Shown here piece after piece: positions 789 through 21,982 of a DNA stretch of 64,000 bases (within the stretch, counting starts at the first letter, position 1; each line of letters starts with the position of its first letter). Position numbers and translations under genes: made by a program. The notes below the pieces were generated by a model, which worked only from the letters and a program-made list of their open reading frames with translations, was not told where the DNA came from and searched no databases. Origin of the DNA: Vampirovibrio chlorellavorus (lineage in GTDB: Bacteria > Cyanobacteriota > Vampirovibrionia > Vampirovibrionales > Vampirovibrionaceae). The stretch spans positions 1 through 64,000 of the forward strand of contig LAPX01000019.1 in NCBI GenBank assembly GCA_001858525.1, written 5' to 3'.

Positions 789-1871
789 TTATAACACCAG
801 TGTTGAGGTTAGTGCATATAGGCAAAACCCGTATGTCGAGCTTCCAGTAAGAACCTGACTTCCGTCACGCGAAAAATGTGCATGGCTGGTGTACTTGTCC
901 AGACGGCCTATCTCAACGCCCCTGGTAATATCCCAAAGGTGCGTGTAACCATCCGAGTAACTGATGCCCAAAGTGCCGTTATAGTTGATCTCGATGTGGC
1001 ACCCGCCTTGGGTTCCTCCCATGTTATTGGTTGTTCTCAACCTAACATGCTCTTTCCGCTTATCAATGTCCCAGATCCTAACAGAGTTTTCTCTTTTGGC
1101 GGCTTCGTAGCGGATGATTTCAGGTGGTATTTCAAAGTCGTCTGATACGCAGGCTTCCTCTTCGACTTTATCCATTTCGTCAAAGCAAACAGAACCGGAA
1201 AAGGCCACAAAGCTTCCATTCCCTGAGAAAGAGACTTCACCGGCTCCAGAACTTGAGCCTCCGAAACGTTCTACAAGTTTTCCAGAAGACAAATCCCAGA
1301 TGCAAACATACTCCCGCAAGCAGGCAGACAAGCCATATCGTCCATCAGGGGTAAATGCAACCCCAATAATATTTTCAATATGCCCGGTAAGAGTTTTCAA
1401 TATCTTACCTGAAGCAACATCCCATAGATGAACCAAGCCATCAGTATGCCCGGAAAGGGCATATTTATCACAGGTTGAAAATGTCGAGCAGTCAGAATAT
1501 GGAGTCTTTTCAAAGTCCCTAACAATACTAGCGTCAGTCAGGTTCCAGAGACGCATGGGCCGTTCAGAAACGATCCCTTCAGTGTAACCGGCGGTCAAAG
1601 CCAGATTCTCATCAGTCGAAACAGACAGAGCACTAAATACCTCATCCTCTCTTCCAAAACGGAGAGATTGACGTCCGGTGCTAATATCCCAAAGCCTAAT
1701 ATCGCTCAGGCAATCTGAAAGAGAACCACTGTCCCTATGTCGAGCAGAGCCAGCAATGACTTGTCCACGTCTTTGCAGGATTTGTAGAGTATGAAGGTAG
1801 AGAAAATGACTATTGCCAAAGTGCTGCAATTCTTGGAAACACAGCAAGTTTTCGGCCAATTTGGTATTCAT
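789..1871 (-). CDS. WD40 repeat protein, last gene of defence operon
   Basis: 360 residues with about six WD40 blades. The repeats are visible as recurring GH-(x)n-WD pairs, for example SGHTDGLVHLWDVASG, TGHIENIIGVAFTPDG and SVRIWDIDK. A beta-propeller of this kind normally serves as a protein-interaction or sensing platform; no enzymatic domain is present. The start overlaps the stop of the upstream DUF499 gene by one base (TAATG at 1873-1869), which implies translational coupling and membership in the operon. I do not know a defence operon of this gene content that ends with a WD40 gene. The role as sensor or scaffold is inference. Confidence 0.85.
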   Translation of the reverse strand: MNTKLAENLLCFQELQHFGNSHFLYLHTLQILQRRGQVIAGSARHRDSGSLSDCLSDIRLWDISTGRQSLRFGREDEVFSALSVSTDENLALTAGYTEGIVSERPMRLWNLTDASIVRDFEKTPYSDCSTFSTCDKYALSGHTDGLVHLWDVASGKILKTLTGHIENIIGVAFTPDGRYGLSACLREYVCIWDLSSGKLVERFGGSSSGAGEVSFSGNGSFVAFSGSVCFDEMDKVEEEACVSDDFEIPPEIIRYEAAKRENSVRIWDIDKRKEHVRLRTTNNMGGTQGGCHIEINYNGTLGISYSDGYTHLWDITRGVEIGRLDKYTSHAHFSRDGSQVLTGSSTYGFCLYALTSTLVL

Positions 1872-4800
1872 TAATGCGCCTCAAACCCATGTGATTTGAA
1901 TTTGAGTGTTTTACAATTTTCCGTAACTGTTCTAACAACCTGCTCTGAGACCCCATCAGGGATATAAACCTGAACTTCCATTGTAACTTCCACGGTTGCA
2001 CCGGGTAAGTCTGCCAAATGTTGAACGACTTCTTCCGCAATTCGACCAGCATCCCGGCCAATCCGAGACTCATCAATCTGAATCGAAGCATAGAAGCGTT
2101 TAGGTGTAATGGAACCGGGAATAGAAGGCTGGAGTCGTTGTGAATCGGAAGAAGATTGCTCTGGCCTGCTAATGGTCGGATTGCGAGTTGTTGAAGTCGG
2201 TGCTACAGGTGAACCAACGGGCTCCATAATCTTTTCTCTTTCACGAGTAATCTGAGCCGCTGCAACGTCTGTTTGAACCAGCAACCCATTAAGGCTTACC
2301 GTGAAGTGTCTTCCTGGTTCAGCAATCAATCCTAAATAATTATCCTTGGGTTCATCAAATCCAGTGGCGTATGCAAAACGGTCTGATAGGAAGTGCCCAT
2401 CGTAAACCCCTTCAATGGCTTTCAGAAGAGACTGTTGGTCCTTTAGTCGTGGTAAATAGGGATAGGTGGCATAGAACTCCCAAAGCTGACGGACTTCAAG
2501 GTGTTTTTTGCCTTGCCAGAGATTGAATCGTTCAAGGTCTAGCTTAAGACGATCTGCACCGTAAGTTACCATCAGATGCTCTTCGTCTTTTAGCTTTTTG
2601 CAAACCTTGCCAGCTAAGCCGTCTTGCTGCGCCTGAATCTTGATCTCTTCCCAGTCAATGCGGTTGATGGTTTCAAGTGTTTGATAAGGATAAACACACC
2701 AAATCCAGGTTTCTGCAATTCTTAAGCCAACGATGCCTTCAGCCTCAGTCCTTTTGTTAGCTACGTAATCTTTTTCACTGGATTTCAAATCTAGCTTGTC
2801 TGCTTCTTTATGAATGGAAGACCAAGCCAAATATTGACGAATAGAATCCTCTAGGTCGGCAAGCTTGGTTTGATCCGGGGCCAAGAAAACCAGCATATTT
2901 TTATAAAGCCTAGGCGAGTTACCACGCTCCTTCAAAATTTGTTGACAAATCTTTCGGGCAGGACTATCTTCCACATTCTTAACCAATGGATATTCTGGAC
3001 CTAAAATAACCAATCGGACTTCTTTTTCATCAGGAATTTCTTCTTGGGTGTAAGGTGGATTATAAACGTGAATACCCCCAACAAAATCAGCCCGTTTACG
3101 TCCATCAGCTTCTACTTTTAGTTGTCTAATAATCTCTGTTGTTAGAATATCTCGGTCAAGCTGATTAGCACGCTCTCTAGCCAACTGATCAACACTGGGC
3201 TGGGTAGAATACCAATAACGACGAGCTTCCTGATAGAGATAGGTCGCACGTTCTTCCAGACGACGAATGGCCGTATCGCCAAAAGTAGCGACTGATTCTC
3301 CCGGTTGGACACATCCCAGATTGATTTTCTTATCTATAATGCCGGGGTTGGCACCCTGCGCAATGGGTGCAGAGCCCATAAAGATGGTTCTGGCAACCCT
3401 ACGACATGCGGAATATCGTCCCAGCATGTCATTATTTCGGTCAACCTCCATAGGCAGAGAGTTGAGACCATCAATATCTTTGTCGATAACGGCTTTCCAC
3501 CCATCCGAGAGATAGTAGGTCAAGCTGTCACAGACTGTTCTGTCGTCAAGGGGAATGGATGACGGCATGATTAAGAGGCTTTTATCTCCCTGTTCCCACA
3601 AGGAGTGGATAACAGAAGCCATCAAACGCAGGACACCACGGGTTTGCTGGAATTTCTCCAACGTAGACCAATCACTATAAAGTCGTTCAAACAATTCAGG
3701 ATGAATGGGGTAACAGCTTTCCAGCTTTTGCTTGTAAGAGTATTCCTTGCATTCCGTTGGAAACTCGTTAGCGCTATCCTTGTACAACTTCATAAATGCT
3801 GAGATGACACCATCCCGGAACGCATGTTGCTCACCAGTCAAAGGTTCAAACAAGCGGCGACGGATAATTTCATAGCTTTCCTCGGAGTTGGCTGGACGCC
3901 AACTGGATTGCACTCGGTTGAATGTATGTTTCAGCGAAGCCAGGGCACGTTGACCACCCTCGCCACCAGTTTCAATATTGGAGACTGGTAAAGATGCTAC
4001 CAGTAATGTGTTGGGCGCGTCCTTAACTGCCTCAGTCATAGCTTGAGCAAACGTCAGGTTTGGGTCAAAGGAACCACCCGGAAGTCCTTGAGTATTATAG
4101 GTTTGGCGAATATAGGCAACCCATTCGTCAATTAAAATCAAAGATGGAGAGAATGCGGTAAACAGCTCAACCAGCTCTTGAGAGCCGGGGCTAATTCCAT
4201 TCTTATCGGCTTCCGCAACGTATTGCAGAGCCTCGCTTCCACCCAACTGCCAAGCCATTTCGCCCCAAATGGTATTGATAACTGAGCCATCAGGTTTTTT
4301 ACGAGGCTGGCCGGGACTTAATGCCGTGCCTACTAGAACTGCCCGGTGAACTTTGGGGAGTGTGGTTATATCCAGATCTTTTAAAAGCGGTTCCACACCG
4401 GGTAGTTCCGCCGCTTTGCCATTGGCAAACAGGTGGAATAAGGCGAGCATCGAGTGAGTTTTGCCCCCACCAAAGTTGGTTTGAAGCTCAATAACTGGAT
4501 CGCCACTATTCAGGCAAAACCGTTTAAGCGCATTTTTCAGTAAGTCTGACAGCCCTTGGGTCAAGTGCGTCCGACCATAGAACTCCTTAGGGTCTTGATA
4601 TTCGCTAGAGGCACCACCCCGATAAACCGCAGCCAAGTCGGCGGCGAATTCCGCCTTTTGATAATTACCAGAACTAACATCGGGATGAGGCGTGACCACT
4701 TCTCGCCAAGGCTTTAAGCCTGTTTGTGGCTGTCCTTCTACTTTGGCGACTGTTTTAGTTTTGCTCCGTGCCTCGCTGGAAAAAACTTCCCTCAATAGAT

Positions 4801-5209
4801 CATATTGAATTTTCTTGATGGCTTGTGCATATTCTGACGCCGAAATGCTCTCCAGGAAAAGTTGCATGGTATCCAATGCACGTCGGGCTTCGTCAGATGA
4901 AAAGGGCTTGTCATGAGCAAATTCGTTTCGCACATTCAGCATTTCAAACACCCAGGACCGATGAGCCTGGCTCAAGTTTTGACTAAATACTTCTTTCCAG
5001 AACACATCAATGCAACGAAGCAAGGCATAGTTATCCCAGCGAAGATTGCCATTTCTGTCCTCCTCGATGCGCGTTCCTAAACGTGCTTTGACTTGATCCG
5101 GCCAGTTTAAAGAAAGGTGTGAGCGCAATTGGGCTTCAACATAAATGGTCAGAGGCTCTTTTAAGACTTCCAGAGCTTTTGAAACACGATCCCGATTACT
5201 AAGAGCCAC
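1871..5209 (-). CDS. Swt1-type HEPN / DUF499 P-loop ATPase
   Basis: 1112-residue two-part protein. Residues about 1-150 look like the Swt1-family HEPN domain, with the R-x4-H motif RNEFAH at about 93-98; that motif marks HEPN ribonucleases. The rest is a DUF499 ATPase: Walker A FGGGKTHSM near residue 250 and Walker B LILIDEW near 358. DUF499-class ATPases are related to the BrxC/PglY group of phage-defence ATPases. The C-terminal region (about 960-1010) is low-complexity and rich in Pro and Ser. The gene lies 3 bases after the methyltransferase stop and overlaps the WD40 start. It is expected to be the energy-using or sensing component; RNase activity is inferred from the motif only. Confidence 0.85.
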   Translation of the reverse strand: MALSNRDRVSKALEVLKEPLTIYVEAQLRSHLSLNWPDQVKARLGTRIEEDRNGNLRWDNYALLRCIDVFWKEVFSQNLSQAHRSWVFEMLNVRNEFAHDKPFSSDEARRALDTMQLFLESISASEYAQAIKKIQYDLLREVFSSEARSKTKTVAKVEGQPQTGLKPWREVVTPHPDVSSGNYQKAEFAADLAAVYRGGASSEYQDPKEFYGRTHLTQGLSDLLKNALKRFCLNSGDPVIELQTNFGGGKTHSMLALFHLFANGKAAELPGVEPLLKDLDITTLPKVHRAVLVGTALSPGQPRKKPDGSVINTIWGEMAWQLGGSEALQYVAEADKNGISPGSQELVELFTAFSPSLILIDEWVAYIRQTYNTQGLPGGSFDPNLTFAQAMTEAVKDAPNTLLVASLPVSNIETGGEGGQRALASLKHTFNRVQSSWRPANSEESYEIIRRRLFEPLTGEQHAFRDGVISAFMKLYKDSANEFPTECKEYSYKQKLESCYPIHPELFERLYSDWSTLEKFQQTRGVLRLMASVIHSLWEQGDKSLLIMPSSIPLDDRTVCDSLTYYLSDGWKAVIDKDIDGLNSLPMEVDRNNDMLGRYSACRRVARTIFMGSAPIAQGANPGIIDKKINLGCVQPGESVATFGDTAIRRLEERATYLYQEARRYWYSTQPSVDQLARERANQLDRDILTTEIIRQLKVEADGRKRADFVGGIHVYNPPYTQEEIPDEKEVRLVILGPEYPLVKNVEDSPARKICQQILKERGNSPRLYKNMLVFLAPDQTKLADLEDSIRQYLAWSSIHKEADKLDLKSSEKDYVANKRTEAEGIVGLRIAETWIWCVYPYQTLETINRIDWEEIKIQAQQDGLAGKVCKKLKDEEHLMVTYGADRLKLDLERFNLWQGKKHLEVRQLWEFYATYPYLPRLKDQQSLLKAIEGVYDGHFLSDRFAYATGFDEPKDNYLGLIAEPGRHFTVSLNGLLVQTDVAAAQITREREKIMEPVGSPVAPTSTTRNPTISRPEQSSSDSQRLQPSIPGSITPKRFYASIQIDESRIGRDAGRIAEEVVQHLADLPGATVEVTMEVQVYIPDGVSEQVVRTVTENCKTLKFKSHGFEAH

Positions 5210-5212
5210 GCC

Positions 5213-8089
5213 CTATACCTCCATCAATTTTTGTTGAACCGGTGCGACCGGTTGCGCTTGCTTCAATTGGTTGGCCCGTTCGACAATATCCGGCCAGTTG
5301 GTGACCAGATTGTTGTAGGCCAGGGCTTCATCGGCCCATTTATTTCTTTCACAGATTGAATATAGTCGATAAGCCAAATCCCGAACGGCATCGGCTAGTG
5401 AGCCTAGCTGGTTATACAGCTCAGCAGCGGCGGTTTCGTTGTAACCATCATCGGCAAAGGCTCTTTTAATGAGATGCTGGACGGCTTCCCAGACGGTTGG
5501 CCGGTCATCGTGTTGCGGGTTCCAATCACCGGGCATGTCCTTGCGTGGAATGATTTGTACCTTGCCCGCTTTGGCGATGAGAATGCCGGAAGCCACAACA
5601 CCCTGAACCGAAACGTTACGGGCATTTGCGAGTTGTTCGGCCTGGCCGTAATCGCCTTCTTTCATCCCAAACTGTTCAAACCAGGTGATGGCAAAACGGG
5701 TATCGGCATCGTACTCGCCTTCCTGTTCCGCCAAATATTCATCCAGTGACTCGTTGATCAATTGCAAAGCGGTTTTGACCGACATGGCCGATCCATCCGC
5801 TTCCATGACCTTGGCGTAACGGGAAAAAATAGCCATGCCAGGGCCGATAGAAGCTTGTGCCATATCTACCGGAGCCAAGTTGCTATGCTGAAGGTTTTTG
5901 ATAGCCGCAGGTAGTTCCCGACGAAGATATTGGATAAAGTCTTTCCGGGTAATGGTTTTAGCTTCTTTTGGTTGCTTTCGACATACCAAAACTACAGATG
6001 AGGCCAGAAAATTCGCCCCCACTTTTACACCTGTTGGCCTCTCAGTTCTCATCGGCCAAGTTCCGTTTATGGATAATTTTGCGTTAATTATAGCCTCTAA
6101 GAATGTCGCCCAACCTGTCGAGGAAGTACCTGATTCATCTTTTTCTGATTGTTTAAAGGCGTAGTAGATTGTTATAGGAAATGATTCAGCTTGAGCGCTG
6201 GATAAGTTCTTCATAACGGAAGTCATACCGTTGAGAAAGAAATCTTCCGCTTTCATCTTATTTCCTTGATGTCGATAAGGCGTTGCTATTAATTCTTCAT
6301 TTTTAGGAACAAGTAATGTTGAAAATATCTCAGGATAAATATTTTTGAGAGAACGTCGCATCCAAATATAGAAAAAATCTGATAGATCTGCATAACCAAT
6401 ATTGTCATAATATGGAGGATCTGTTGAAAATATGGTTGAGTTTTTGTCTAGTTTTATTTGAGAAGCGTTTTTTTGAGAAATAGAAACAAAAGTATTTTTA
6501 GTTCGTAGACTAGCCAACATTTTACCAATGGATTTTGTTGTTTCTCCATAATCTCCAGCAGCTTCAGCAAAGGGATTCACCTCTGGAAAATCCCAATTCA
6601 TTGGTAACGCTTGTCTGCTAAAGACATTTACACTCTGATCTCGGCTAGTTGACCAAACGGCTAAGGTGCATATTGTGTTTGCGGAACGACTTGCAGCAAG
6701 GCCAAGATAAACGGATACAGCCTCTGAATATTTCTTCGCTTGTTTTGAATCGAGTCCAGCAGCTTCCGCATCAGTCAGAATTTGCGTGTAAGCACTAGGA
6801 ATACCGTGTTCGGAATTGCCCATAATTAGATCACTTAACGTTGTTAGCGCTGCTAACTGCCTAGATGTAAATAGTTGCTTATGTTTTAGCATGCCGTATT
6901 CTTGGATACGAAAGCCGAGAGCTTTTTCAGGAAGATCTGTTTCCGGTGGATTAATTGGTTGGGCTTGTTTAGCAATTCTTTCCATCTCAGAAGTAGGCGA
7001 TAAGTAAATCCGCCCTTTTTTACCTTCAGCAACCACCGCCATTAATCTTTGATCCATTCGACCAGCCTTGGCTTCCGCTCTTATCCAATCAAAAGGCACC
7101 GGAATATTCGTCAATAAACAGCACCCGCCAGTTCTTTCAACTGTTCCATTTTCCCATTTGCTCGAAACTTTTCCTTGTCTAATTTCAAAGTGATACGACC
7201 TGCTATCTTCAGCAATAACTGGTTCCACCCACGTTTCTTTATCTTTTTTACTTGAAAGCTTAAATGAACGAACTAAAGGAACATGAATTCCACTAATCGC
7301 CGGATTAGGGCTTGCTACTGTTCTAGTCCAAATCCAGGCTATAACCGTATACCCATTAGGGTCATCGGATGGTAAGGGATTGCCTACTTTATCCACCTTT
7401 GGGTACAAATGCCCAATCCTTTTAAAAGCCTCATCACGCATCCATTGGCCGTAATAGCGTACATCTTCTGCTAATCCTTTGGCATCTCTCCAGACAGAGC
7501 TCTTTCCTTTGGTGGTTTTTGTTTGGGCCTCAGGGTTAACAGGAGGCTGTCCGGCAAATTTCGGTGGTATTTCAATTAGGGCTTTCCCAATCATGACAGC
7601 AACCGGGTTCAAATCAGAGCCGTAAGCTTCCAGCCCCAATCGCTGGGCTTCCAACGGAATGGAACCGCCGCCTGAAAAGGGATCGTAAATAGGCGGTGGG
7701 TTGCCATTGCAACTGGCTGAAATTAAGGCATAAGCTTGGTTATAGAGGGCTTCATCCTGAATGTTGTCCCACTTCACCAAGCGTTCAATAAACCCAAACA
7801 GCTTAAACCGGCGTTCTTCGGCCTGTTTTTTGGCTTGGTCTTTATATTTGTCCACCAAGGGCAATTGATCGATCAACGCAAGATAGTCAGGGGCCAAGCC
7901 CTCCTGTTCAGGGTCATCCACCAATTGAGCAAACAAAACCGCTCGACAAGCCGCCAAAGGCCGTCGCGCCCACCACAAATGCAAAGTGCTGGGGTGCCCA
8001 TGCCGAATGGACTTCTCCCGCGCGGACTCTTTATTGATTTCTTCCAGCGGCAACGCCACTTCAATCAGTTTCTTTTTGAATGTCGTCAT
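5213..8089 (-). CDS. DUF1156 DNA methyltransferase
   Basis: Large SAM-dependent DNA methyltransferase of the DUF1156 type, probably modifying an amino group of adenine or cytosine. From the start chosen here it is 958 residues. The family N-terminus is seen at once (KKKLIEVALPLEEIN, then GHPSTLHLWWARRPL). The SAM-binding motif DPFSGGGS lies near 134-141 and the catalytic DPPYYDN near 555-561, in the order of a beta-class enzyme. The open frame extends back to 8197, but homology starts at the ATG at 8089, one base after the stop of the upstream gene. It would mark self DNA while the neighbouring helicase and ATPase act on unmodified DNA, as in DISARM/BREX-like systems. Confidence 0.9.
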   Translation of the reverse strand: MTTFKKKLIEVALPLEEINKESAREKSIRHGHPSTLHLWWARRPLAACRAVLFAQLVDDPEQEGLAPDYLALIDQLPLVDKYKDQAKKQAEERRFKLFGFIERLVKWDNIQDEALYNQAYALISASCNGNPPPIYDPFSGGGSIPLEAQRLGLEAYGSDLNPVAVMIGKALIEIPPKFAGQPPVNPEAQTKTTKGKSSVWRDAKGLAEDVRYYGQWMRDEAFKRIGHLYPKVDKVGNPLPSDDPNGYTVIAWIWTRTVASPNPAISGIHVPLVRSFKLSSKKDKETWVEPVIAEDSRSYHFEIRQGKVSSKWENGTVERTGGCCLLTNIPVPFDWIRAEAKAGRMDQRLMAVVAEGKKGRIYLSPTSEMERIAKQAQPINPPETDLPEKALGFRIQEYGMLKHKQLFTSRQLAALTTLSDLIMGNSEHGIPSAYTQILTDAEAAGLDSKQAKKYSEAVSVYLGLAASRSANTICTLAVWSTSRDQSVNVFSRQALPMNWDFPEVNPFAEAAGDYGETTKSIGKMLASLRTKNTFVSISQKNASQIKLDKNSTIFSTDPPYYDNIGYADLSDFFYIWMRRSLKNIYPEIFSTLLVPKNEELIATPYRHQGNKMKAEDFFLNGMTSVMKNLSSAQAESFPITIYYAFKQSEKDESGTSSTGWATFLEAIINAKLSINGTWPMRTERPTGVKVGANFLASSVVLVCRKQPKEAKTITRKDFIQYLRRELPAAIKNLQHSNLAPVDMAQASIGPGMAIFSRYAKVMEADGSAMSVKTALQLINESLDEYLAEQEGEYDADTRFAITWFEQFGMKEGDYGQAEQLANARNVSVQGVVASGILIAKAGKVQIIPRKDMPGDWNPQHDDRPTVWEAVQHLIKRAFADDGYNETAAAELYNQLGSLADAVRDLAYRLYSICERNKWADEALAYNNLVTNWPDIVERANQLKQAQPVAPVQQKLMEV

Positions 8090-8090
8090 G

Positions 8091-9203
8091 TTAATCGTCC
8101 TTCCCAAGCTGGTAGCCGACAGAGCCCTCACATTGAGAACATCCAAAGGCACCGCTAAAATCTTGCAAGTTAATTGAGCCTTCTCCACACCAGCCACAAG
8201 ATTCTATCCTATCTGAATCTTCAAGGCAGTTAAGGCAAATAAAGCTTTCATTATTCCTAATTACGGTATGATAACCGTCACACCATGAGCAGTTAAACTC
8301 CCAATCAGTAAAAGCGATATCACTATTTCGCATTCCCTCATGCGTCGTAGAAAGAATATCTTTTACTTCTTCAATATCGTACTCTTTTTTGCACTTCTCA
8401 CAACTGCCGTTTTCATCCTGGAAGATAACTTTCCCCTCACATTGAATGCAGTTAAATACCAAATATGGGTAGCTGTCATAACCACAAACTTTGCACATCT
8501 CACGCTGTATGCTGGGTTGTTCAAGCAACACCATTACTTTGGCTGAATGATTACCGCATGAGGAACAATCGTTATAAATCACTCCTTGAGCAATCTCTTC
8601 TTTTATATCCGACTCATAGTCACTCTCGAAAACAACTTGCAAATATGCACGGTGTTTTCTCATCTTCAGATCAAGCTCATCTATCTTTGATTGAAGTTGC
8701 TTGAAATGTTCTTTCCAATGTTCCGTCAGCAATGATTTGATAATATGCCAAGCTTTGCATTGCTCTGAAGCTACGTCTCTTAAAGCCTGGGGAACATTTC
8801 GATTCAATTCGTGATCAAAATGGAGAATACGGTTTCTGTGATCTGCCAAATCCATAAAAACTTTTTTCTGAGAAATTGGTTCATTTGCAATTTTCGCCAG
8901 TCGAAGAAATGATTCTTCTAAAGTTACACTATTACATTTACCCTTAATAAAATCATTCCAGTCTGCCTTATTCATGTCCCTGACCACTAAGGACCAGTGT
9001 TCTTTCATCAAACGGGCTTTAAGAAATAACTCCACTCCAGTACAAAAGTGGATAACCGAATATTTTGAATCCGTTTGAAATTCATCAATTCCTTTACCTA
9101 GAAAGTCAAAAGCATTGTTTGTTACCCAGTTACAAAGCTTTTTCGGGGTTGGAGGAAGTTCTGCTTTTGTTTTTAGCTCAGGAGTTTTACTCACTTTTGA
9201 CAT
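8091..9203 (-). CDS. HEPN-like protein with multiple zinc ribbons
   Basis: 370 residues. The N-terminal half is helical and carries HRNRILHF at about 121-128, which fits the R-x4-H signature of HEPN domains. The C-terminal half (about 214-364) holds a run of CxxC pairs (CSSC, CKVC, CIQC, CEKC, CSWC, CLNC, CGWC, CSQC), i.e. three or four tandem zinc ribbons that probably bind nucleic acid. It overlaps the stop of the helicase gene by one base (TGATG) and lies one base before the methyltransferase start. I do not recognise a named family. The operon thus carries two HEPN-type proteins. An effector or target-recognition role is inference. Confidence 0.75.
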   Translation of the reverse strand: MSKVSKTPELKTKAELPPTPKKLCNWVTNNAFDFLGKGIDEFQTDSKYSVIHFCTGVELFLKARLMKEHWSLVVRDMNKADWNDFIKGKCNSVTLEESFLRLAKIANEPISQKKVFMDLADHRNRILHFDHELNRNVPQALRDVASEQCKAWHIIKSLLTEHWKEHFKQLQSKIDELDLKMRKHRAYLQVVFESDYESDIKEEIAQGVIYNDCSSCGNHSAKVMVLLEQPSIQREMCKVCGYDSYPYLVFNCIQCEGKVIFQDENGSCEKCKKEYDIEEVKDILSTTHEGMRNSDIAFTDWEFNCSWCDGYHTVIRNNESFICLNCLEDSDRIESCGWCGEGSINLQDFSGAFGCSQCEGSVGYQLGKDD

Positions 9204-12200
9204 CAGAGAGGCTCTCCGGCCAAGTCAAGCAATTGCCGCAGACTAAAAGTCCGGGTAGTCTCGGCAAAATCTGGTTCTCCAAAGCAGTATTGCTTCAAAT
9301 ACCGGGGCGTCTTTGCCCCATTCTCATCCACCAGAACCAAGGCCAGCCGGAATTTTTCCGGTTCATTCCGAGAACATAGAATCTCGTTTTTGGTGAGCGT
9401 GACATCCTGCTTTTGGTGCCATTTGCCCTTGACCTCGATAAACATGAGCCCACCACTGGCGGGATCTTTCGATTCAATGTCATAGCCAATGCCTCGCTCC
9501 GCGGAAACATCTCGCGGCAAACGGCCAAGCTGCTTTTCAGTGGCAATGACTGCTTCCATAGCCAATCGTTCAATAACATCCCGACCCACGGGGCAAGCGT
9601 TATCATCCGGCGTGAAAATCGGGGTACCAAACCCATTCCCTAGGCCTGCACCCATTAGTTTGGTTAAAAGCCCTTTGGGAACAATGACCGCCCCACCTTT
9701 AACCACAGGCGGCAATGCACTAATCTGGCGCTCTTTTTCCAATTCCGTCAAGCGTCGCTGCAAACGGTCCGAAAGCTCCTCCGCCTTGGCAGAGGCATTA
9801 GAAGAGTTCAAGCGGTTGTTGCCTTTACCCGACCGCTCTTGGGCTTTCAAGTCTTCTGCCCTGCGATCCCAATGCGTTATTTCCTTACGAAGACGGGATG
9901 TTACCTCTTTTTCTACCTTCTCAATCAATGGCAGTCGAAGGTCTTGAACCTCCTTGACCTGCTTGGGAATAATGTGTTGAATGGTAAAGCCCAGGATCTG
10001 GGATTCAAAATCCTGTTTGAGCCACTCTGCAGATTCCAACACGGGCTGAAGGGCCAATTCCTCATCCTGATTGACAGGCCGATAATCCAGATAGGGAGCA
10101 GAACCGGCAGATTGTTGGTTGCCGGTCTCATCAATTTCCACAAACTGGAGTTGCTGGGAGACAACGGTTTGAATCCCGTTCTTATTGGTTCGGCCATCCT
10201 GAACTGCATGCTCCAGATAGAACAGCAATCTTAAGCTTTCACCCTCATCTGCTTCATCCACTAGCAGAGCGCCTTGTTTCAGCAATTCCCGATAGCGCTC
10301 AAGCACCAAGTCGATGGTGGAATCCAGCAGGGGATGCCCCGGACAAATAAACGCAGCCACAGGGCTTTGATTCACCTTGTCTTTTTCAAAGCAGACACGT
10401 TCATACCGAGGAAGTACCGGTTCCCCAATCCCAATTTGACGGTCTCGATCTCGAATGAGAGCAGGTACTCGGGTAATTTCAAACCGGTTCGACTCACGAG
10501 GAGCAATAGTGCCACCCAGCTTTTGGAATGCCTCCATGAAAAAAGACTGTATAAAGTGAGGCTGTAAGCGACGGGCATTGGCACGCTCCATGTCATCCCG
10601 AATCCGCTCTATTTTAGAAGCATCCATCGTATCCCGAACTAGCGCATGATCTTCCAAGAGGTCTTTTAGGTGCTCCCGATCCACAGCGTTATCAATGACT
10701 TGATTCAAGCGATCCTTTATTTCAGGGTCTTCTCCATAACGGATGGCTTGCATCAACAAGTCTCGCAAGCTGGTTTCTTCAAACAACTGCCCCAGAACGT
10801 CATAGACTCTTCCACCCAAAGCTGCGCGCTCTGCTTCCAGCTTCTCCAGTAACCTGTGATAAACCTCGCCTTCACGGGTTTCAAAAGCCATCATATTCCA
10901 GAGATGGCAAACCTCTTCCTGGCCAATTCGGTGAATACGACCAAATCGTTGTTCCAAGCGGTTTGGGTTCCAGGGCAAGTCATAGTTTACCATCAAGTGT
11001 GCGCGTTGCAGGTTGACGCCCTCGCCTACGGCATCGTTAGCCAGCATCACCATCACCTGTTTGTCCTGCTTAAATGCTTCAATCAGTTTCCGTCGCTCTT
11101 CCCTGCCTACACCGCCATGAACCACTACTACTGATTCTGGCTTGCCAAAGCGGTTGCGGATTTTATCAGCCAGGTAATAAAGGGTATCCCGGAATTCACT
11201 AAAAATAATCAGTTTACGGTGATTTCCCTGTGCGTCCTTCATCAAAGGGTTATCAAGGATTGATTCCAATTCATTCCATTTGCGGTCAACACCCGATAGT
11301 TTAACTCGCTTTGCTTCCTCTTCCAGTTTTTTTAGAGTTTCAATTTCGAGTTCTAATTCCTCGATGGTTCGAGCGGCAGTGGCCTGATCTACAACTTCTT
11401 GCTCAAATGCTTCTACCTCATCCTGAGGGGCATCTTCCAAATCGTCAAAGTATTCAGGGTTTGTCTTAAAGCTATACTCTGGTTGAGATATAGTGCTACC
11501 ACCACGTTGGAGAAGTCTCTCTTCATTTAGGCGACCCTCCAATCGTTCCCGACGATTGATAAGTGACTTATGAATAGATGCCGGAGAAGAGGCTAAACGG
11601 CGTTGCAGGATTTGAAGAGCAAAACCAACGTTCAGGCGGCGCTTCTGATCTTCATCGGCAAAGCGCTCTGCCCGGTTCATCTCTTCTCTTACATACTCGG
11701 TCACATCATGGTACAACACGGCTTCTGGATCGGATAAAGGATACTGAACCGTATAGGCTCGACGCTCCGGGAACAAGGGTCTTCCATCAAATTTGACCAA
11801 TTCTTCTTTGGTTAGTCGCCGCATTAAGTCGGTGACATCAATTCTGTGAACGCCGTCTCTGAATCGTCCTTCAAAGCGATCTGCATCCAATAGAGCCATG
11901 AACAGTTGAAAATCTGTTTCCTTACCATTGTGTGGGGTCGCGGACATTAACAAGAAATGGCGACAATGAGCCCCCAACAATCTGCCAAGCTGATAGCGTT
12001 GGGTATATTTAACATCTCCCCCAAAGTAACTGGCAGACATTTTGTGTGCCTCGTCACAGACCACAAGATCCCAATCTTTGGCAGCTTTCAATTTTGCTTG
12101 AAGATCTTCATTACGACTAAGCATGTCCAGACGTGCAATCAACAGGTTTTTTTCTTCAAATGGATTGCCGGAACGAGAGGATTCAATTTGATCGCGAGAA

Positions 12201-12745
12201 AGAATGTCAAAAGACAACCCAAATTTCGAATAAAGTTCATCTTGCCACTGTTCAACCAAACTACCAGGCGCAACAATCAAGCATCGCTCTAGATCACCGC
12301 GAATCACAAGTTCTTTGATAAGAAGGCCAGCCATAATCGTCTTTCCTGCTCCAGGATCGTCTGCAAGCAAGAATCGAAGTGGTTGTCGAGAAAGCATTTC
12401 ACCATACACAGCGGTAATCTGGTGGGGTAATGGATCAACCAGTGAGGTGTGGATCGCCAGATAAGGATCAAATAAATAAGCTAATCTGATTCGGTAAGCC
12501 TCAGAAACCAAGCGAAAAAGAGAACCATCCGAATTGAAAGACCATGGACGGCCTTGTGTAACAATTTCCAGCGTCGGCTCATCTGTTCTGTAGACCAGCC
12601 GATTCTTTACTGTGCCATGAGAGTCTTCAAAGATAACTTTGACCGCTTGATCTCCAAACCATTCAACGCTAACCACTTTCGCGATACCGTCTGGCGACAA
12701 CCCTTTTATCAACGCTCCTGCTTTTAGGTCATTCAGTGATGGCAT
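9203..12745 (-). CDS. SNF2-type helicase/translocase with C-terminal DUF3883
   Basis: 1180-residue superfamily 2 translocase. Motifs: I DDPGAGKT (about 127-134), II DEAH (about 229-232), III LLMSATPHNGK, then in the second RecA domain FSEFRDTLYYL and the motif VI region QRFGRIHRIGQ (about 597-607). The C-terminal 100 residues carry the DUF3883 pattern GYDIESKDPASGGLMFIEVKG, a nuclease-like fold in which D/E-x-K residues are retained. The architecture resembles DrmD of class 1 DISARM. It is expected to track along or remodel invading DNA. It sits 7 bases downstream of the EVE gene and overlaps the next gene by one base. Confidence 0.9.
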   Translation of the reverse strand: MPSLNDLKAGALIKGLSPDGIAKVVSVEWFGDQAVKVIFEDSHGTVKNRLVYRTDEPTLEIVTQGRPWSFNSDGSLFRLVSEAYRIRLAYLFDPYLAIHTSLVDPLPHQITAVYGEMLSRQPLRFLLADDPGAGKTIMAGLLIKELVIRGDLERCLIVAPGSLVEQWQDELYSKFGLSFDILSRDQIESSRSGNPFEEKNLLIARLDMLSRNEDLQAKLKAAKDWDLVVCDEAHKMSASYFGGDVKYTQRYQLGRLLGAHCRHFLLMSATPHNGKETDFQLFMALLDADRFEGRFRDGVHRIDVTDLMRRLTKEELVKFDGRPLFPERRAYTVQYPLSDPEAVLYHDVTEYVREEMNRAERFADEDQKRRLNVGFALQILQRRLASSPASIHKSLINRRERLEGRLNEERLLQRGGSTISQPEYSFKTNPEYFDDLEDAPQDEVEAFEQEVVDQATAARTIEELELEIETLKKLEEEAKRVKLSGVDRKWNELESILDNPLMKDAQGNHRKLIIFSEFRDTLYYLADKIRNRFGKPESVVVVHGGVGREERRKLIEAFKQDKQVMVMLANDAVGEGVNLQRAHLMVNYDLPWNPNRLEQRFGRIHRIGQEEVCHLWNMMAFETREGEVYHRLLEKLEAERAALGGRVYDVLGQLFEETSLRDLLMQAIRYGEDPEIKDRLNQVIDNAVDREHLKDLLEDHALVRDTMDASKIERIRDDMERANARRLQPHFIQSFFMEAFQKLGGTIAPRESNRFEITRVPALIRDRDRQIGIGEPVLPRYERVCFEKDKVNQSPVAAFICPGHPLLDSTIDLVLERYRELLKQGALLVDEADEGESLRLLFYLEHAVQDGRTNKNGIQTVVSQQLQFVEIDETGNQQSAGSAPYLDYRPVNQDEELALQPVLESAEWLKQDFESQILGFTIQHIIPKQVKEVQDLRLPLIEKVEKEVTSRLRKEITHWDRRAEDLKAQERSGKGNNRLNSSNASAKAEELSDRLQRRLTELEKERQISALPPVVKGGAVIVPKGLLTKLMGAGLGNGFGTPIFTPDDNACPVGRDVIERLAMEAVIATEKQLGRLPRDVSAERGIGYDIESKDPASGGLMFIEVKGKWHQKQDVTLTKNEILCSRNEPEKFRLALVLVDENGAKTPRYLKQYCFGEPDFAETTRTFSLRQLLDLAGEPL

Positions 12746-12752
12746 TCTTCAT

Positions 12753-13178
12753 TTATCTCGCTGTCACCGCCGCTTGAGAAAGAGCGTCTGCAATTTTTTT
12801 GTAATCGGCAAAAGGAATCTTTCTCATTCCTCCAGCCAGAGCACCTTGCCACTGAAGCTTGCCTTGGGAGAATTCAAGATTATCTGTTAGGCTCCAAGCG
12901 TTGATTGCATTATCTTGGGGAAATAATTCCAATTTGATGCCCACTCTGTTGGGGAACAGCCCACCTTCAAAGGCTGGTTTGTCATCCAAATAATATTCTT
13001 TAGTGACTTCCCCAATACCGGAGAAGGTTGTTTCTTTTCGGATATAGGCGACCAGCTTGTCTCCGACTCTCATTTTAGAGAGCTGAGAGCCATGGTTTAA
13101 TCCATAGACACCTATATTCGCACAGGCTTCCATGTTTTTCCTGTCGGCAACTATAATCCACGCTTGCTTTTCTGTCAT
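12753..13178 (-). CDS. EVE-domain protein, first gene of defence operon
   Basis: 141-residue single-domain protein of the EVE (PUA-like) fold, seen from the N-terminal AWIIVADRKN, the glycine/lysine segment RVGDKLVAYI, FSGIGEV, and the late LQWQGALAGGMRKIP. EVE domains bind modified bases in DNA or RNA and often sit beside modification-dependent restriction genes. Here it heads a methyltransferase operon, so it could read the mark made by the DUF1156 enzyme or a phage base modification. The ATG at 13178 follows a ribosome site (AAAGGG). The promoter should lie in 13179-13338. Confidence 0.85.
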   Translation of the reverse strand: MTEKQAWIIVADRKNMEACANIGVYGLNHGSQLSKMRVGDKLVAYIRKETTFSGIGEVTKEYYLDDKPAFEGGLFPNRVGIKLELFPQDNAINAWSLTDNLEFSQGKLQWQGALAGGMRKIPFADYKKIADALSQAAVTAR

Positions 13179-13338: not shown

Positions 13339-14376
13339 TCAATATATAGCCTTGTCAGCAAAAACACCTCTGACACCACCCCGAGGGTTGACAACGTCGC
13401 CCTCTCTCCTGGGAATCAGATGAACATGGGCATGAAAAATGGTCTGTCCCGCCACTTCACCAATGTTTATACCGACATTAAACCCCTGAACCTTTGGGTC
13501 AAGCTTAGCAACCGTCTCTTTTTGCCCATCCAGCAGCGCCAGTATGGATTGGTGTTCCGGCTTATAGAGGTCAAACCAACCCGCCACATGGCGCTTTGGA
13601 ATTACCAAGGTGTGTAAATCCGAGACAGGATAAGCATCTCGGATAACGTAGGCTAGCGCCGTTTCAGTCACGACACGGTGATTCTCGATATGGCAAAAAA
13701 GGCACCCTGTCTCCCGGTGATTATAACTGGCCTTGATGCTGGCAAAATCAGTATCATCCCTGTCTCGTTTCTGCCGGTTGCACTGATAGCAAAGGGCCTG
13801 GAGGTTCGAAGGGTCATCCAAGCCCCCTTTGTTGCGTGGAACAATATGATCGATATCGATAGCACGCTCTTCGGATGACACCCCGCAGCATTCACAACGC
13901 CCCTTGGCTCTTTTGAGTATGTCATAGCGGATGCTTCCGGAAATATAGCCCTCTGCCATAAACCGATGCTCCCAAACGGCCATTTTGCGCTTTTGAACAT
14001 AGTCCAGAAGCTTCACGTTGCAGATGGAGATAAGTTCTAGGCGCTTATCTTCACTCAGTTGGGCAAAGGACTCTTCCAGGTAATAGTCTTTCCCGTCCTT
14101 CTTGACGATACCGTGCTTGCTGAGGACCTGGGCCGGGTAACGCTTGACGATTTGCTCGTAGTATTCGATCTGGCTTTCATCTTCGATGAGGAATGCCTTT
14201 GCGATATCTCGAATGCCTGCCTGCCCTCCGTTTTCTAATAAAGTGCGGATCATCAATGGCTGATAGACATGCGACATGCGCATTTTCTCAGTCAAAAACG
14301 TTTTAAGGGCTTCAAAACCAGGGTCAATCATCAAACGTGGTCCAGGCAGATTTTCCGTTATTGTAGAGTGCTCCAT
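13339..14376 (-). CDS. HNH endonuclease fused to HIT hydrolase
   Basis: 345-residue fusion. Residues about 1-140 are helical and unassigned. An HNH nuclease with zinc-binding CxxC pairs follows (CECC at about 157, DIDHIVPRNKGG, then CYQC near 195). The C-terminal 120 residues are a HIT nucleotide hydrolase/transferase with HAHVHLIP near 314-321, the histidine-triad signature. HIT enzymes act on AMP-linked or dinucleotide substrates. Joining one to a DNA-cutting HNH domain suggests an immune effector tied to a nucleotide signal or an adenylylated intermediate; that is inference. The gene is divergent from the RecQ-like gene with 107 bases between, so the two may share a control region. Confidence 0.85.
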   Translation of the reverse strand: MEHSTITENLPGPRLMIDPGFEALKTFLTEKMRMSHVYQPLMIRTLLENGGQAGIRDIAKAFLIEDESQIEYYEQIVKRYPAQVLSKHGIVKKDGKDYYLEESFAQLSEDKRLELISICNVKLLDYVQKRKMAVWEHRFMAEGYISGSIRYDILKRAKGRCECCGVSSEERAIDIDHIVPRNKGGLDDPSNLQALCYQCNRQKRDRDDTDFASIKASYNHRETGCLFCHIENHRVVTETALAYVIRDAYPVSDLHTLVIPKRHVAGWFDLYKPEHQSILALLDGQKETVAKLDPKVQGFNVGINIGEVAGQTIFHAHVHLIPRREGDVVNPRGGVRGVFADKAIY

Positions 14377-14483: not shown

Positions 14484-17400
14484 ATGAGCAGCATTAATTC
14501 AGGGTCTGTTTTTAAAAGGCATGCGTGGAAATTGGTCATTCATTGTTTTATGAGATTAACAAATTATCAAGCCGGTTATGCTCTTAACCCATTGTTTGGA
14601 AAGAACGATGCTCTTCTCAAGCATCTTTCCACATTCGCGATCCAGTCCTCCATTGATCTAAAGAGGCGATCAGAGGATTCTCTAATCTGTATCCTTCACA
14701 ATCTCCTGATTCGAGGGGTTCCCACTAAACCCAGCACTTTTATAGAGGATGCATTTGCCTCGACACTTCAAAAGACCGCATATACTGTTAACTCGATAGG
14801 GTCAATCCGGTATGAGCTTGTGGGAGAGGACACGAAAAGGTTTGACGATCTGTTGGGTAAGGCCATGCATATCATTGAGCCAAGACTTGTCCCTGAGAAT
14901 ATCAGCTACGATGGATATGACCACCAGTCCGAAAAACAATTCCGAGAAAAGTTACTGCCCAAAGCAATGGGGGCTTTTGCTTCGCAACTCATCGAGCCCC
15001 AGCGGGAGCTAGATGGCTTGTTGAATTTCGATTCCGAAAAAAAGGATCGCTACGAAAGTATCTTGGGAAGATATGCCGCCCGGTTCTACCGGCAGCAAGT
15101 CGATTTCACTCTCACCCAACCAGGCGAAAAGGGATTAGTTATAGAAATCGACGGCAAGCAGCACCAAAATCCCGATCAAAGGGAACTGGATTCCCGCCGC
15201 AGGGGGGCTCTAAAAAACAAAGGCTGGCAACTGGCAAGAATACCGGCGAATAAAGCCATTCCTGAGATGGAACTTGGAATCATCGGTCAGTCTCTCTCTC
15301 TGGCATATGCCGAGAAATGCAAAGAGAACTATCAAAACCCTATATGGGAAGAGCCGGAAGGTATGGATGCCCTGCAATACGCGCTCAGCCCTTTTGCCAT
15401 CTCTCGTATCCAGATGGCGCTTATCGCTCTTATTCAGACAGAAACCCTGAAGTTGAGTAGCAAGCGGTGGAGGATATGCGTCTTTGAGCGCGATGTGCCT
15501 TGCGCGCACCTGGCTATCGAGGATTTCAAGCAGCAATATAAAAACCTGATCGTTCTGACGGGTCGGAAAAAGGGACTGCCTGAAATCGAACTGACCGTCA
15601 TCACCACGCCAGAATTTCGTAAGGCTGGCTTGCACACTCTCTTCCAACCTATTCTGATTGACGAATTGCCAACCGGAACCAAAGCGGATGTCCTGATCGA
15701 CGTATCGATTCTGGAGAGAACCCATCTGACGGGAATCCCCGATGTCCTGCTGGAAAAGATTATCTCTCCTGCCAATCTGATCATTCGTTCTGCTTACCAG
15801 GCATCCGATGACAGAAGGTTTCTGTGCGCCAAGCCGGTCAAATACGCTTCCTTTCTTGAGAATTTCGAACGGCTGGACGTTTTGCGATACTTTTTGAAAA
15901 ATATCTTCCGAAAAAGCGATTTCAGGCCGGGGCAGCTTGAAATCATGGAAAGAGTCCTCCAGCAAAAAGATGTTATCGGATTGTTGCCAACGGGCGCCGG
16001 GAAATCGCTGACCTATCAGCTCGCTGCACTGCTGCAGCCAGGGATTACTCTCATTGTGGATCCCATTAAGGCGTTGATGTATGACCAGGTCGATAACCTG
16101 AAGCGCACCTCTATCGATGCTTGTTGCTTCATCAGTTCGGCATTGTCCAGGCCGCAGAGGCAGTATGTGGAAAAGTCCCTGGAAGAAGGCCGTTACCTTT
16201 TTGTATTTGTTTCTCCAGAACGACTTCAAATTCAGGAATTCAGAGAAACCTTACTCTCCCTGAAAGATCTGTACTTTTCCTATTGCGTCATAGATGAGGC
16301 CCATTGCGTGTCCGAATGGGGCCATGACTTCAGGACGGCATACTTGCGCCTTGCGGAAAACGCACGGAAATACTGCAAGCACTACTATTCACAAGTACCC
16401 ATGGCTGCTTTAACAGGAACAGCGTCTTTTGACGTTCTGGCCGATATCCAAAGAGAGCTTGGAATCGGCTCCGAAGGAGTCATTACGCCTCCCACGTATG
16501 AACGAAAAGAACTCAGTTTCCATATCCTTCCATGCAAGCCAGAGCAGGAAATCATGAACCTGCCCCAAAAAGAGGCGGTTGCCCTGGTCAAGAAGCAGAC
16601 ATTATCCACTCTCATCCGTTCCATTCCAAGTTATTTTGGAGAATCTCAAGATTTTTTTGAAGCCGTAGGAGAAGAAAGCAAGGCAGGACTTGTCTTTTGT
16701 CCACATGTAGGATGGGAATTTGGCGTAAACAAAGTCGCTAGTCATTTGAAGGAAACATTGCCGGAGCTAAACGGATCTATTGGCACCTTTGCAGGTAGTT
16801 TCGATTCCAACAGCCCGGACGGTACTTCCTCTCAGGAAATCCAGGATCACTTCAAGGATAATCGGCTCAATTTACTGGTAGCTACAAAAGCCTTTGGAAT
16901 GGGCGTAGATAAACCCAATATTCGTTATACCGTCCATTTCAACATGCCTCCATCCATTGAGTCCTTCTATCAGGAAGCGGGGCGTGCCGGAAGGGATCGC
17001 AAAGACTCTCATTGCTTCATTCTCTTTTCCGATACCAAAGTAGCAGAAGGCCGTTTCGGGGAAGTTACCGTTGATAAAGGACTTATGCTCAGTTTCCATC
17101 AGAACTCCTATCGGGGTGAGGCAAAAGAGATACGGATCTTAATGGATCTTTTGCACAATCCAATCCAAATCGATGGGGACAAGTACCCCAGCATCTGCAA
17201 TTTGCTGGATGGCATGTCGATTGATGAAGAAAAGGAGATGGTCATCCCTTACGAGAATGAGGCCATTGCCAATATTCTTTCTTATCTTCAAAGGGAAGTC
17301 CATAGTGAATTCAGAGAGGATCACCTTCAGGAAGCGATTCGCTATTGTCAAAGCGTTGGGGAAATGCTCACTAAAGCAAGAAGTAAACTGTACAAGGATA

Positions 17401-18269
17401 TCCAAATATGGTCTTTTGAAGACGATGAGCAGGAAACCCATGAGAAGGCATTAAACGATCTTTTCATATCGATCCGCCAAGACGCGGACATGTACAAAGC
17501 CATCTTCAGGCTCTCTTTGATAGGTCTGATTACCGATTATGTGGTGAACTACAATACAAGAACCATCACTGCAAAGATACGAAGGCGGAATCCTGACTAT
17601 TATATCTGGGCATTAACCGACTATATCTCAAGATATGTGTCCGTCCCTGAGGTTAAACGGACGCCAGGCAAGATTGAAGCCACTGAGGGGGATTCGATCT
17701 TGATCAAATGCGTCCATTATTTGGTCGGTTTTATCTATAGTAACATCGTCCGTAAGCGCGAAGAAGCGATCAACATTATGGAGCGGGCTATCGAGCATGC
17801 CATCTCCGGAGGCGATTTCAAGGAATACGTCAATTCCTATTTTGATTCCAAATACACGACTGTTCTTAGGCCTTGTCTTTATGATTACTCTCTGAAAACC
17901 GTTTGGGAAATGATCGAGGACATCAAGGGGGAACCGGACGGACTGAAGCATTTGCTCGGCGCAACCAACCGGCTGCTGGTGGAAAACCCTGATAACCCGG
18001 TATTGCTTTTATTGCGCGCGTTCGCCGCATTGGGTGTCGAAATCAACACCACAGCTAGCACCGGCGATTTTATCAAAGGCTGGCAGATCTCAAAAAGAGA
18101 TGAGCTTTCCAAATCCCTGTCAAAAGACATGAAACGCTTTTATACGTATTGTCTCCAATATCATGGCCTAGAAGTAGAAGAGCACTTAGGTGCGGAAATA
18201 TTGAAATTCCATTTGACCTGGCTTAAAGATTTCAACAAACAACAAACGGGAGCCCTAACTGATGCCTGA
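14484..18269 (+). CDS. PD-(D/E)XK nuclease fused to RecQ-family helicase
   Basis: 1261 residues. The N-terminal 270 contain a PD-(D/E)XK-type nuclease core with VIEIDGKQHQ near 220-229, followed by a basic helix as in Vsr/DUF559-like enzymes. The helicase core has FRPGQ (about 480), LPTGAGKS (Walker A, about 502-509), VIDEAHCVSEWGHDFR (motif II and the RecQ aromatic loop, about 604-619), TGTAS, and QEAGRAGRDR (motif VI, about 830-839). No HRDC domain is apparent; the last 400 residues are unassigned. The product should unwind 3'-tailed DNA and could cut it. The start is uncertain: a second ATG lies about 70 bases downstream. The 3' end overlaps the next gene by 8 bases. Confidence 0.85.
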   Translation: MSSINSGSVFKRHAWKLVIHCFMRLTNYQAGYALNPLFGKNDALLKHLSTFAIQSSIDLKRRSEDSLICILHNLLIRGVPTKPSTFIEDAFASTLQKTAYTVNSIGSIRYELVGEDTKRFDDLLGKAMHIIEPRLVPENISYDGYDHQSEKQFREKLLPKAMGAFASQLIEPQRELDGLLNFDSEKKDRYESILGRYAARFYRQQVDFTLTQPGEKGLVIEIDGKQHQNPDQRELDSRRRGALKNKGWQLARIPANKAIPEMELGIIGQSLSLAYAEKCKENYQNPIWEEPEGMDALQYALSPFAISRIQMALIALIQTETLKLSSKRWRICVFERDVPCAHLAIEDFKQQYKNLIVLTGRKKGLPEIELTVITTPEFRKAGLHTLFQPILIDELPTGTKADVLIDVSILERTHLTGIPDVLLEKIISPANLIIRSAYQASDDRRFLCAKPVKYASFLENFERLDVLRYFLKNIFRKSDFRPGQLEIMERVLQQKDVIGLLPTGAGKSLTYQLAALLQPGITLIVDPIKALMYDQVDNLKRTSIDACCFISSALSRPQRQYVEKSLEEGRYLFVFVSPERLQIQEFRETLLSLKDLYFSYCVIDEAHCVSEWGHDFRTAYLRLAENARKYCKHYYSQVPMAALTGTASFDVLADIQRELGIGSEGVITPPTYERKELSFHILPCKPEQEIMNLPQKEAVALVKKQTLSTLIRSIPSYFGESQDFFEAVGEESKAGLVFCPHVGWEFGVNKVASHLKETLPELNGSIGTFAGSFDSNSPDGTSSQEIQDHFKDNRLNLLVATKAFGMGVDKPNIRYTVHFNMPPSIESFYQEAGRAGRDRKDSHCFILFSDTKVAEGRFGEVTVDKGLMLSFHQNSYRGEAKEIRILMDLLHNPIQIDGDKYPSICNLLDGMSIDEEKEMVIPYENEAIANILSYLQREVHSEFREDHLQEAIRYCQSVGEMLTKARSKLYKDIQIWSFEDDEQETHEKALNDLFISIRQDADMYKAIFRLSLIGLITDYVVNYNTRTITAKIRRRNPDYYIWALTDYISRYVSVPEVKRTPGKIEATEGDSILIKCVHYLVGFIYSNIVRKREEAINIMERAIEHAISGGDFKEYVNSYFDSKYTTVLRPCLYDYSLKTVWEMIEDIKGEPDGLKHLLGATNRLLVENPDNPVLLLLRAFAALGVEINTTASTGDFIKGWQISKRDELSKSLSKDMKRFYTYCLQYHGLEVEEHLGAEILKFHLTWLKDFNKQQTGALTDA

Positions 18270-21949: not shown

Positions 21950-21982
21950 AAAAATGGCAGGACAGGTATTGTAGGCCTACAA
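21950..21982 (-). other. oriT: oriT nic region, IncP type
   Basis: Minus strand reads GGCCTAC, three bases, ACCTGTCCTG, then CC. This aligns base for base in spacing with the RP4 nic region (GGCCTAC-N3-ACCTATCCTG/CC), with one change in the last block. The predicted cut on the minus strand is between 21958 and 21957. The perfect 14-bp palindrome TTGTAGGCCTACAA (21969-21982) abuts it and may be the TraJ site. The 5' end produced leads leftward, through traK-traL-traM and the defence genes; traJ, traI and traG enter last. Confidence 0.85.

Follow-up and report, generated by a model that had tools for sequence, protein, structure and literature searches.

The 64,000-nucleotide stretch of Vampirovibrio chlorellavorus analysed here (contig LAPX01000019.1, positions 1 to 64,000; hereafter the window) encodes a six-gene operon that an earlier note, made from the sequence alone, had described as a DISARM-related defence system of unusual make-up. 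The six genes are all open and on the minus strand at the coordinates given in that note, and the intergenic junctions, from the EVE gene to the WD40 gene, measure +7, -1, +1, +3 and -1 bases, again as noted. The +1 junction between HEC-08 and HmaB requires that HmaB start at the ATG at 8089, the alternative being a longer frame from a GTG at 8197; the ATG is supported because HmaB of the closest relative found, locus L010, aligns from it. The domain calls were borne out by Pfam (EVE, DUF3883, DUF1156, HEPN-DUF499 and WD40) and by PADLOC (HEPN/zinc-ribbon), as was the general view of a defence-type operon with methylase, helicase, ATPase and HEPN parts. Judged by sequence, the large three genes are the catalogued Hma system of 2021, renamed Type-1 DUF499-centred BREX-related (BR) in 2026. 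The features discussed are as follows.

12753..13178, minus strand: EVE-domain protein, 141 amino acids, operon gene 1 (Pfam EVE 5.8e-6; PDB matches PH1033 and MJECL36)
9203..12745, minus strand: HmaA, SNF2 helicase with C-terminal NOV_C/DUF3883, PD-(D/E)XK-like nuclease (PADLOC HmaA 1625 bits)
8091..9203, minus strand: HEC-08, DUF3644-like HEPN and zinc-ribbon region, in the HmaA-HmaB slot (PADLOC HEC-08 8.4e-78)
5213..8089, minus strand: HmaB, DUF1156 DNA methyltransferase with DPPY, N6-adenine type (PADLOC HmaB 1200 bits)
1871..5209, minus strand: HmaC, Swt1-type HEPN fused to DUF499, BrxC-like AAA+ ATPase (PADLOC HmaC 1021 bits)
789..1871, minus strand: WD40 repeat protein, 360 amino acids (Pfam WD40), start overlapping the HmaC stop by 1 base
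8078..9257, minus strand: exchanged stretch, no blastn DNA match between window and L010
6410..7249, minus strand: diverged HmaB stretch between motif I and DPPY, presumed target-recognition region

Hma core and predicted ATPase fold

The PADLOC models for HmaA, HmaB and HmaC match the three large proteins over nearly their full length with E = 0, in PADLOC and Pfam scans that covered seven window proteins (for HmaA, the best 25 of 63 PADLOC matches). Pfam matches comprise NOV_C/DUF3883 in HmaA (1.4e-19), DUF1156 in HmaB (2.8e-27), and both HEPN_Swt1 (2.9e-27) and DUF499 (2.3e-32) in HmaC. Putative catalytic residues are widely conserved among aligned relatives of at least 900 (HmaA), 700 (HmaB) and 900 (HmaC) amino acids. 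The PD-(D/E)XK-like set D1089, E1104 and K1106 of HmaA occurs in 45 of 45 relatives, all of which have R at position 1108, where the window has K. DPPY of HmaB is present in 64 of 64 relatives, the HEPN residues R94 and H99 (R-x4-H) of HmaC in 84 of 86, and its P-loop K250/T251 in all 86.

This arrangement has been described before. In passages of the defining paper, Hma comprises three genes in one operon and is counted 1,638 times across 26 phyla (Payne et al. 2021, PMC8565338). According to parts of a 2026 BREX survey, which classes Hma as Type-1 DUF499-centred BREX-related, HEPN-fused DUF499 proteins occur in 1370 taxa, 79% of taxa have the helicase-nuclease fusion, and added HEPN genes are found at the loci (PMC12839542). 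A passage of a 2013 paper already places SNF2-DUF3883 in an operon with HEPN-DUF499 (PMC3710099). HmaB is termed an m5C (5-methylcytosine) enzyme in a passage of the 2021 paper (PMC8565338). PADLOC-DB annotates it as an adenine methylase, an assignment that fits because DPPY is invariant among its aligned relatives.

The traits of a Type-1 BR operon were found together: an HmaA helicase, an HmaB methylase and an HmaC ATPase in one operon, a predicted C-terminal PD-(D/E)XK nuclease in HmaA (NOV_C and the D/E/K residues), a predicted DUF1156 N6-type methylase in HmaB (Pfam and DPPY), and a DUF499 ATPase related to BrxC (Pfam and a predicted fold match). The N-terminal region of HmaA, where Type-1 BR systems have a TUDOR domain, gave no Pfam match; the ATPase of these systems also has a C-terminal RRM-like domain, and the HmaC model shows a folded end past residue 1036.

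HmaC was folded from a 43-sequence alignment (mean predicted confidence, pLDDT, 85.1). In Foldseek, the solved BrxC of Acinetobacter BREX (chains 9zll and 9zdx) ranked first for this model (4e-7). VIA-align superposed the two with a Z score of 16.1 over 424 residues (root-mean-square deviation 4.3), versus Z 12.3 for the next family, ORC/Cdc6, and the match spans HmaC residues 166-668. By this model, HmaC has a predicted BrxC-type ATPase core. Sequence searches of the PDB gave no match for HmaB or HEC-08, and for HmaC a single one to a peptide-binding protein (E 0.016), taken as chance.

A different descent, in which the SNF2-DUF3883 gene is DrmD and the remainder is DISARM-derived, would draw on matches of HmaA to DrmD models (up to 413 bits) and to one DrmA model (246 bits). 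However, the HmaA model scores 1625 bits on the same protein, and neither DrmB nor DrmC appears among the PADLOC matches listed (seven proteins; for HmaA the best 25 of 63). DISARM membership was rejected on these grounds, and we consider such a descent very improbable. Of the genes that the note had called missing, DrmB, DrmC and PglZ indeed had no match among those listed; the HmaA matches to DrmD and DrmA models are at the level of the helicase only.

Exchange slot, closest relative and operon ends

A scan of genome contigs yielded at least 580 confirmed HmaC relatives. The best 80, together with four of the 146 plasmid records that have an HmaC relative and three loci from related genomes, make up a comparison set of 87 loci besides the window; L001-L005 (its own locus and short duplicates) are outside all counts. 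Their open frames were searched with models built from the window's proteins, and 65 of the 87 loci have at least 1.2 kb after HmaC, while 27 have more than 600 bp before the detected HmaA. On this sequence comparison, the widely kept unit is HmaABC, with EVE kept along in one same-order relative. Near the host, HmaC is patchy: it occurs in 3 of 18 genomes of the order, the window's included, and in none of four other genomes of the host genus. Two pattern matches to HmaC in viral contigs are neither of them relatives.

The nearest relative found, L010, comes from the same order and has the same EVE-HmaA-HmaB-HmaC order, with identities to the window of 72% (EVE), 77% (HmaA), 66% (HmaB) and 74% (HmaC, over 806 residues). 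Where the window has HEC-08, the L010 slot holds HEC-09 (6e-25), an NYN-type protein by a Pfam match below the Pfam cut-off (6e-4) that has no similarity to the window's HEC-08. At the DNA level, the blastn match between window and L010 breaks off at the slot edges: it ends at 9258, with 55 bases left to the HmaA stop, and picks up again at 8077, where HmaB has run for twelve bases. Further into HmaB the DNA match is lost once more, between 7391 and 6429. There the protein is 38-58% identical to that of L010 per 40-residue block, while other blocks are 52-95% identical (mean 77%). Part of the 2026 survey puts the target-recognition insert of the methylase after strand 2 (PMC12839542), and the diverged stretch, presumed to serve target recognition, lies between motif I and DPPY, at the place of that insert. 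We read the comparison, made on sequence, as a cassette exchange in the slot combined with divergence of methylase specificity.

The term 'Hma-embedded candidates' (HEC) originates, according to passages of PMC12988326, in a 2024 preprint by Payne et al. The window's HEC-08 protein matches its PADLOC model over residues 20-364 (model positions 12-355 of 358) and also the PADLOC DUF3644 model (5.1e-44); it has no Pfam match at E 0.01. It contains a HEPN motif, R123-H128 (R-x4-H), and eight CxxC pairs. The GC (guanine plus cytosine) fraction of its gene is 0.386, and 0.358 at third positions, compared with 0.446-0.480 and 0.412-0.462 for the other five genes. Among the 87 loci HEC-08 was found in one, from Hydrogenedentota, where a 31% identical protein is encoded after HmaA and before HmaB pieces. 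This count is a lower bound, as one DUF3644 protein (1.7e-52) that is encoded outside HmaA..HmaC, before HmaA or after HmaC, was missed by the HEC-08 model.

The HmaA-HmaB gap measures at least 300 bp in 47 of the 53 loci showing both genes, sizes that follow mechanical calls of open reading frames and may include split HmaB pieces. Proteins pooled from the HmaA-HmaB and HmaB-HmaC gaps (n=110) are of varied families. Pfam assigned AAA/OLD-type (8), Schlafen AlbA (6), PIN (5), 23S-IVP four-helix (4), Uma2 (3), NYN (2), Macro (2) and DarT (1), and PADLOC models identified AriA (8), HEC-01A (6) and PtuA (5). The two Pfam scans of slot proteins, whose counts represent 25 of 81 families in each, took frames of at least 90 amino acids, with the edge-cut proteins of L038 and L054 set aside (65 of 67 scanned) and, in the internal gaps, seven overlapping frames of L061 (110 of 117 scanned). 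They leave room for single EVE or WD40 matches, and the EVE and WD40 counts come from the model searches instead. After HmaC, a co-directional frame of at least 90 amino acids follows closely in 29 of 63 loci (L017 and L027 left out). We infer that the HmaA-HmaB gap and the operon end are cargo positions, that HEC-08 would be a passenger there, and that WD40 is probably one too.

No protein of its genome other than the WD40 protein (2.4e-10) matches Pfam PF00400. The WD40 start and the HmaC stop share a base in TAATG, so that WD40 is likely translated with HmaC. No counterpart was found at any of the 87 other Hma loci even at E = 10, and none in the genome of L010, where the place after HmaC lies beyond the contig. 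Sampling of 146 genomes of the class, its own included, revealed no close counterpart, the best other match being 43% identical over 94 residues. A single-sequence structure of WD40 was discarded (mean pLDDT 38).

The earlier note had taken the six genes for a distinct system; in an integrated form of this reading, EVE, HEC-08 and WD40 would be obligatory subunits and their combination the invention. The tight, partly overlapping junctions across all six genes and the retention of EVE with the core in L010 would suit this view. Against it, the closest relative has a NYN-type gene unrelated to HEC-08 in its place, relatives of HEC-08 occur in 191 plasmid records, two of which (Vibrio and Pantoea) have no Hma gene annotated within 7-8 kb, and WD40 was not found at the other loci, including the 65 with room for it. 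We hold such a system to be improbable. The conservation of the zinc-ribbon and WD40 genes next to the trio, on which the note had itself staked the claim, was largely lacking.

The EVE gene and its link to BREX

The EVE match scores 26.8 bits against a Pfam cut-off of 23, and modified-base binding is a prediction from its family; the protein is a probable modified-base reader. Among the 87 other Hma loci it was detected in L010, in the same place before HmaA. The gene preceding EVE differs between the two: an HNH-HIT fusion gene on the same strand in the window (13339-14376, minus strand, 160 bases before EVE), and an IMS-family (DinB-like) polymerase gene in L010.

Four of 292 sampled genomes of the host phylum have EVE matches, namely the window's, G076, G074 and G249; the genome of L010 (G010) is not among them and evidently lies outside that sample. 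In G076 (locus L100), a 56% identical EVE gene stands directly before PglW, PglX and BrxC on the same strand, and BrxC is followed by PglZ, BrxD and BrxHI, a set that we take to be type-2 BREX. This type-2 BREX set with EVE at its head is recorded under L100 and L116. The EVE matches of G074 and G249 are weak (35% and 31% identical) and have no Hma-model match within 20 and 12 kb, respectively. On an IMG/VR contig (L117:9968-10423), a 54% identical EVE sits at the very contig end, with nothing visible after it. The close EVE subfamily (at least 54% identity) thus has four members, and all three with visible following genes open BrxC-type operons, two of them Hma (window and L010) and one BREX (L100). 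This link is built on three loci, two of which share a lineage, and more weakly similar EVE genes occur in other settings.

Wider searches returned few EVE matches. There were none in 400 genomes of the phylum of G049 or in 398 genomes of the phylum of G044 (both at E 1e-12 and run without a positive control). The phylum of an archaeal locus gave one in 349 genomes (E 1e-10), near a contig end and with no Hma-model match in 11 kb. No match was found in 50,697 phage records. Plasmid records yielded one, from archaea and 31% identical, and the 12 kb around it carry no annotated Hma gene.

WD40 and EVE might be unrelated neighbours with no role in the system, trapped in a defence island beside a conjugative element. 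The lack of a WD40 counterpart beside other Hma loci would be expected in that case, and the operon does sit at a contig edge (window base 1 is the contig start, 788 bases from the operon's 3' end), with transfer genes on the other side. The overlap of the WD40 start with the HmaC stop argues otherwise, as do the place of EVE before HmaA in L010, its divergence there (72%), near that of HmaA (77%), and the EVE gene likewise preceding the type-2 BREX operon in L100. We regard this explanation as unlikely, while giving it some weight.

EVE may be a rare reader module common to BrxC-type machines. Taking this further, such defence machines could have EVE as a reader subunit that is open to exchange, with one subfamily leading Hma (window and L010) and type-2 BREX (L100), so that systems restricting unmarked DNA would also strike modified-base phages, with RNase cargo and the methylase recognition stretch changing beneath it. 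We offer this proposal tentatively, as possible but on balance doubtful. Should Hma and BREX indeed have EVE in common as a reader, this would illustrate how methylation-based systems can respond to phages hidden by modified bases.

As far as the literature was searched, EVE opening both Hma and type-2 BREX is new, and supplements might hold it. Passages of the Hma papers (PMC8565338 and PMC12839542), supplements apart, contain no bacterial Hma operon led by EVE or ended by WD40, and those of PMC12839542 mention EVE with DUF499 only. Where passages of PMC12707154 treat EVE, no link to BREX operons is described. Parts of PMC11090510 place another kind of system, CoCoNuTs, in superoperons shared with BREX.

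Proposed mechanism, setting and known systems

Composition, gene order, motifs, the predicted BrxC fold and the slot exchange are established directly, and the roles of the proteins are drawn from their families. The operon is likely a restriction-modification-like defence system of the Hma (Type-1 BREX-related) kind and would work as follows. HmaB would methylate adenines in a motif and so mark self, HmaC would assemble on DNA and survey it, and HmaA would travel along DNA and cut unmarked DNA via its DUF3883 nuclease. EVE would recognise DNA in a second way, through the modified bases that it binds in phage genomes, or alternatively would read or check the system's own mark. Backup RNase activity would come from HEC-08 (HEPN) and from HmaC through its HEPN end, and WD40 is perhaps a protein-binding sensor or scaffold.

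Several observations weigh against this account. The RNase, reader and backup roles are predictions from family membership, and conservation lends no support to a role for WD40. EVE was found before HmaA in only one (L010) of the 27 other loci with more than 600 bp there, and in none of 33 other genomes behind named loci; given this rarity, it may be optional or clade-specific. The diverged HmaB stretch is also the least conserved one relative to the more distant G028, so that fast evolution alone could explain the divergence. HmaC of L010 runs to the contig edge, which places its 3' slot outside the contig.

On the opposite (5') side of the operon are conjugation genes and further defence-like genes, which makes transfer of the operon between hosts likely. 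The RpoB of this genome has its best matches in the chains 8syi, 8h3v and 8gzg, which are cyanobacterial and would place the host in Cyanobacteriota, perhaps in Vampirovibrionia. At 14484-19575 (plus strand), a gene for a 1261-residue DpdF-like helicase with a weak DUF559/MTES_1575 nuclease match is followed, with an 8-base overlap, by one for a 437-residue protein with weak ZorA matches; by sequence, the pair is perhaps another two-gene defence system. The regions 21955-26331 and 38809-47584 encode a traJ-II RNA, a relaxase, a VirD4-like coupling protein and VirB4/6/8/9/10-like proteins of a conjugative element. An anti-restriction type gene near this restriction-like operon (36309-38528, minus strand) joins metallopeptidase and Toprim domains to an N-terminal domain of ArdC type. 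Other minus-strand genes encode a 1331-residue protein that has TPR repeats, a PIN (TPR-GreABC) domain and a weak match to the Mrr nuclease (26871-30866), an AbiEii nucleotidyltransferase as in type IV toxin-antitoxin systems (49715-50764), and an AcrB-family RND efflux pump with an outer-membrane efflux protein (57531-63240).

The novelty claimed for the operon is mostly already described. What keeps it interesting is that EVE links Hma with BREX, on three loci, and that the cassette exchange is clean. The window and L010 amount to a natural experiment, in which the same EVE-HmaABC chassis is seen with two different embedded nuclease-like genes and two versions of the HmaB recognition stretch. 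With this pair it can be tested directly if embedded genes defend on their own or need the system that hosts them.

The operon resembles Hma and Type-1 BR, as portrayed in passages of PMC8565338 and PMC12839542, in having the same three proteins in the same order, with HEPN-DUF499 and the helicase-nuclease fusion. The features of Type-2 BR, a standalone DUF3780 and an N-terminal HKD nuclease, are absent from the Pfam matches of the seven proteins. Its slot gene agrees with HEC-08, the PADLOC-DB Hma-embedded candidate, in its near full-length model match inside an Hma operon, between HmaA and HmaB, and no difference was found. Passages of an earlier study report a standalone EVE beside a COG1743-DUF499-SWI2/SNF2 operon in diverse archaea and PIN-GNAT-EVE fusions near such operons, and propose for EVE a role in telling foreign modified DNA apart (Bell et al. 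2020, PMC7641849); its main text uses neither the word BREX nor Pgl. EVE next to the trio, which the earlier note had counted with WD40 as the new element, was published there, mainly for archaea. Compared with those archaeal operons, the window has the same trio with a standalone EVE but differs in its bacterial host, in the position of EVE as the 5' gene, and in the 56% identical EVE that also precedes type-2 BREX. Unlike BREX and Type-3 BR, the operon has no PglZ among the PADLOC matches listed for the seven proteins; it also lacks BrxA and BrxB matches there, and it departs from BREX in its DUF1156 methylase and in the nuclease fused to the helicase. With BREX it shares a predicted BrxC-type ATPase fold, an adenine methylase, an SNF2 helicase, and the EVE module common to this operon and the type-2 BREX operon of L100.

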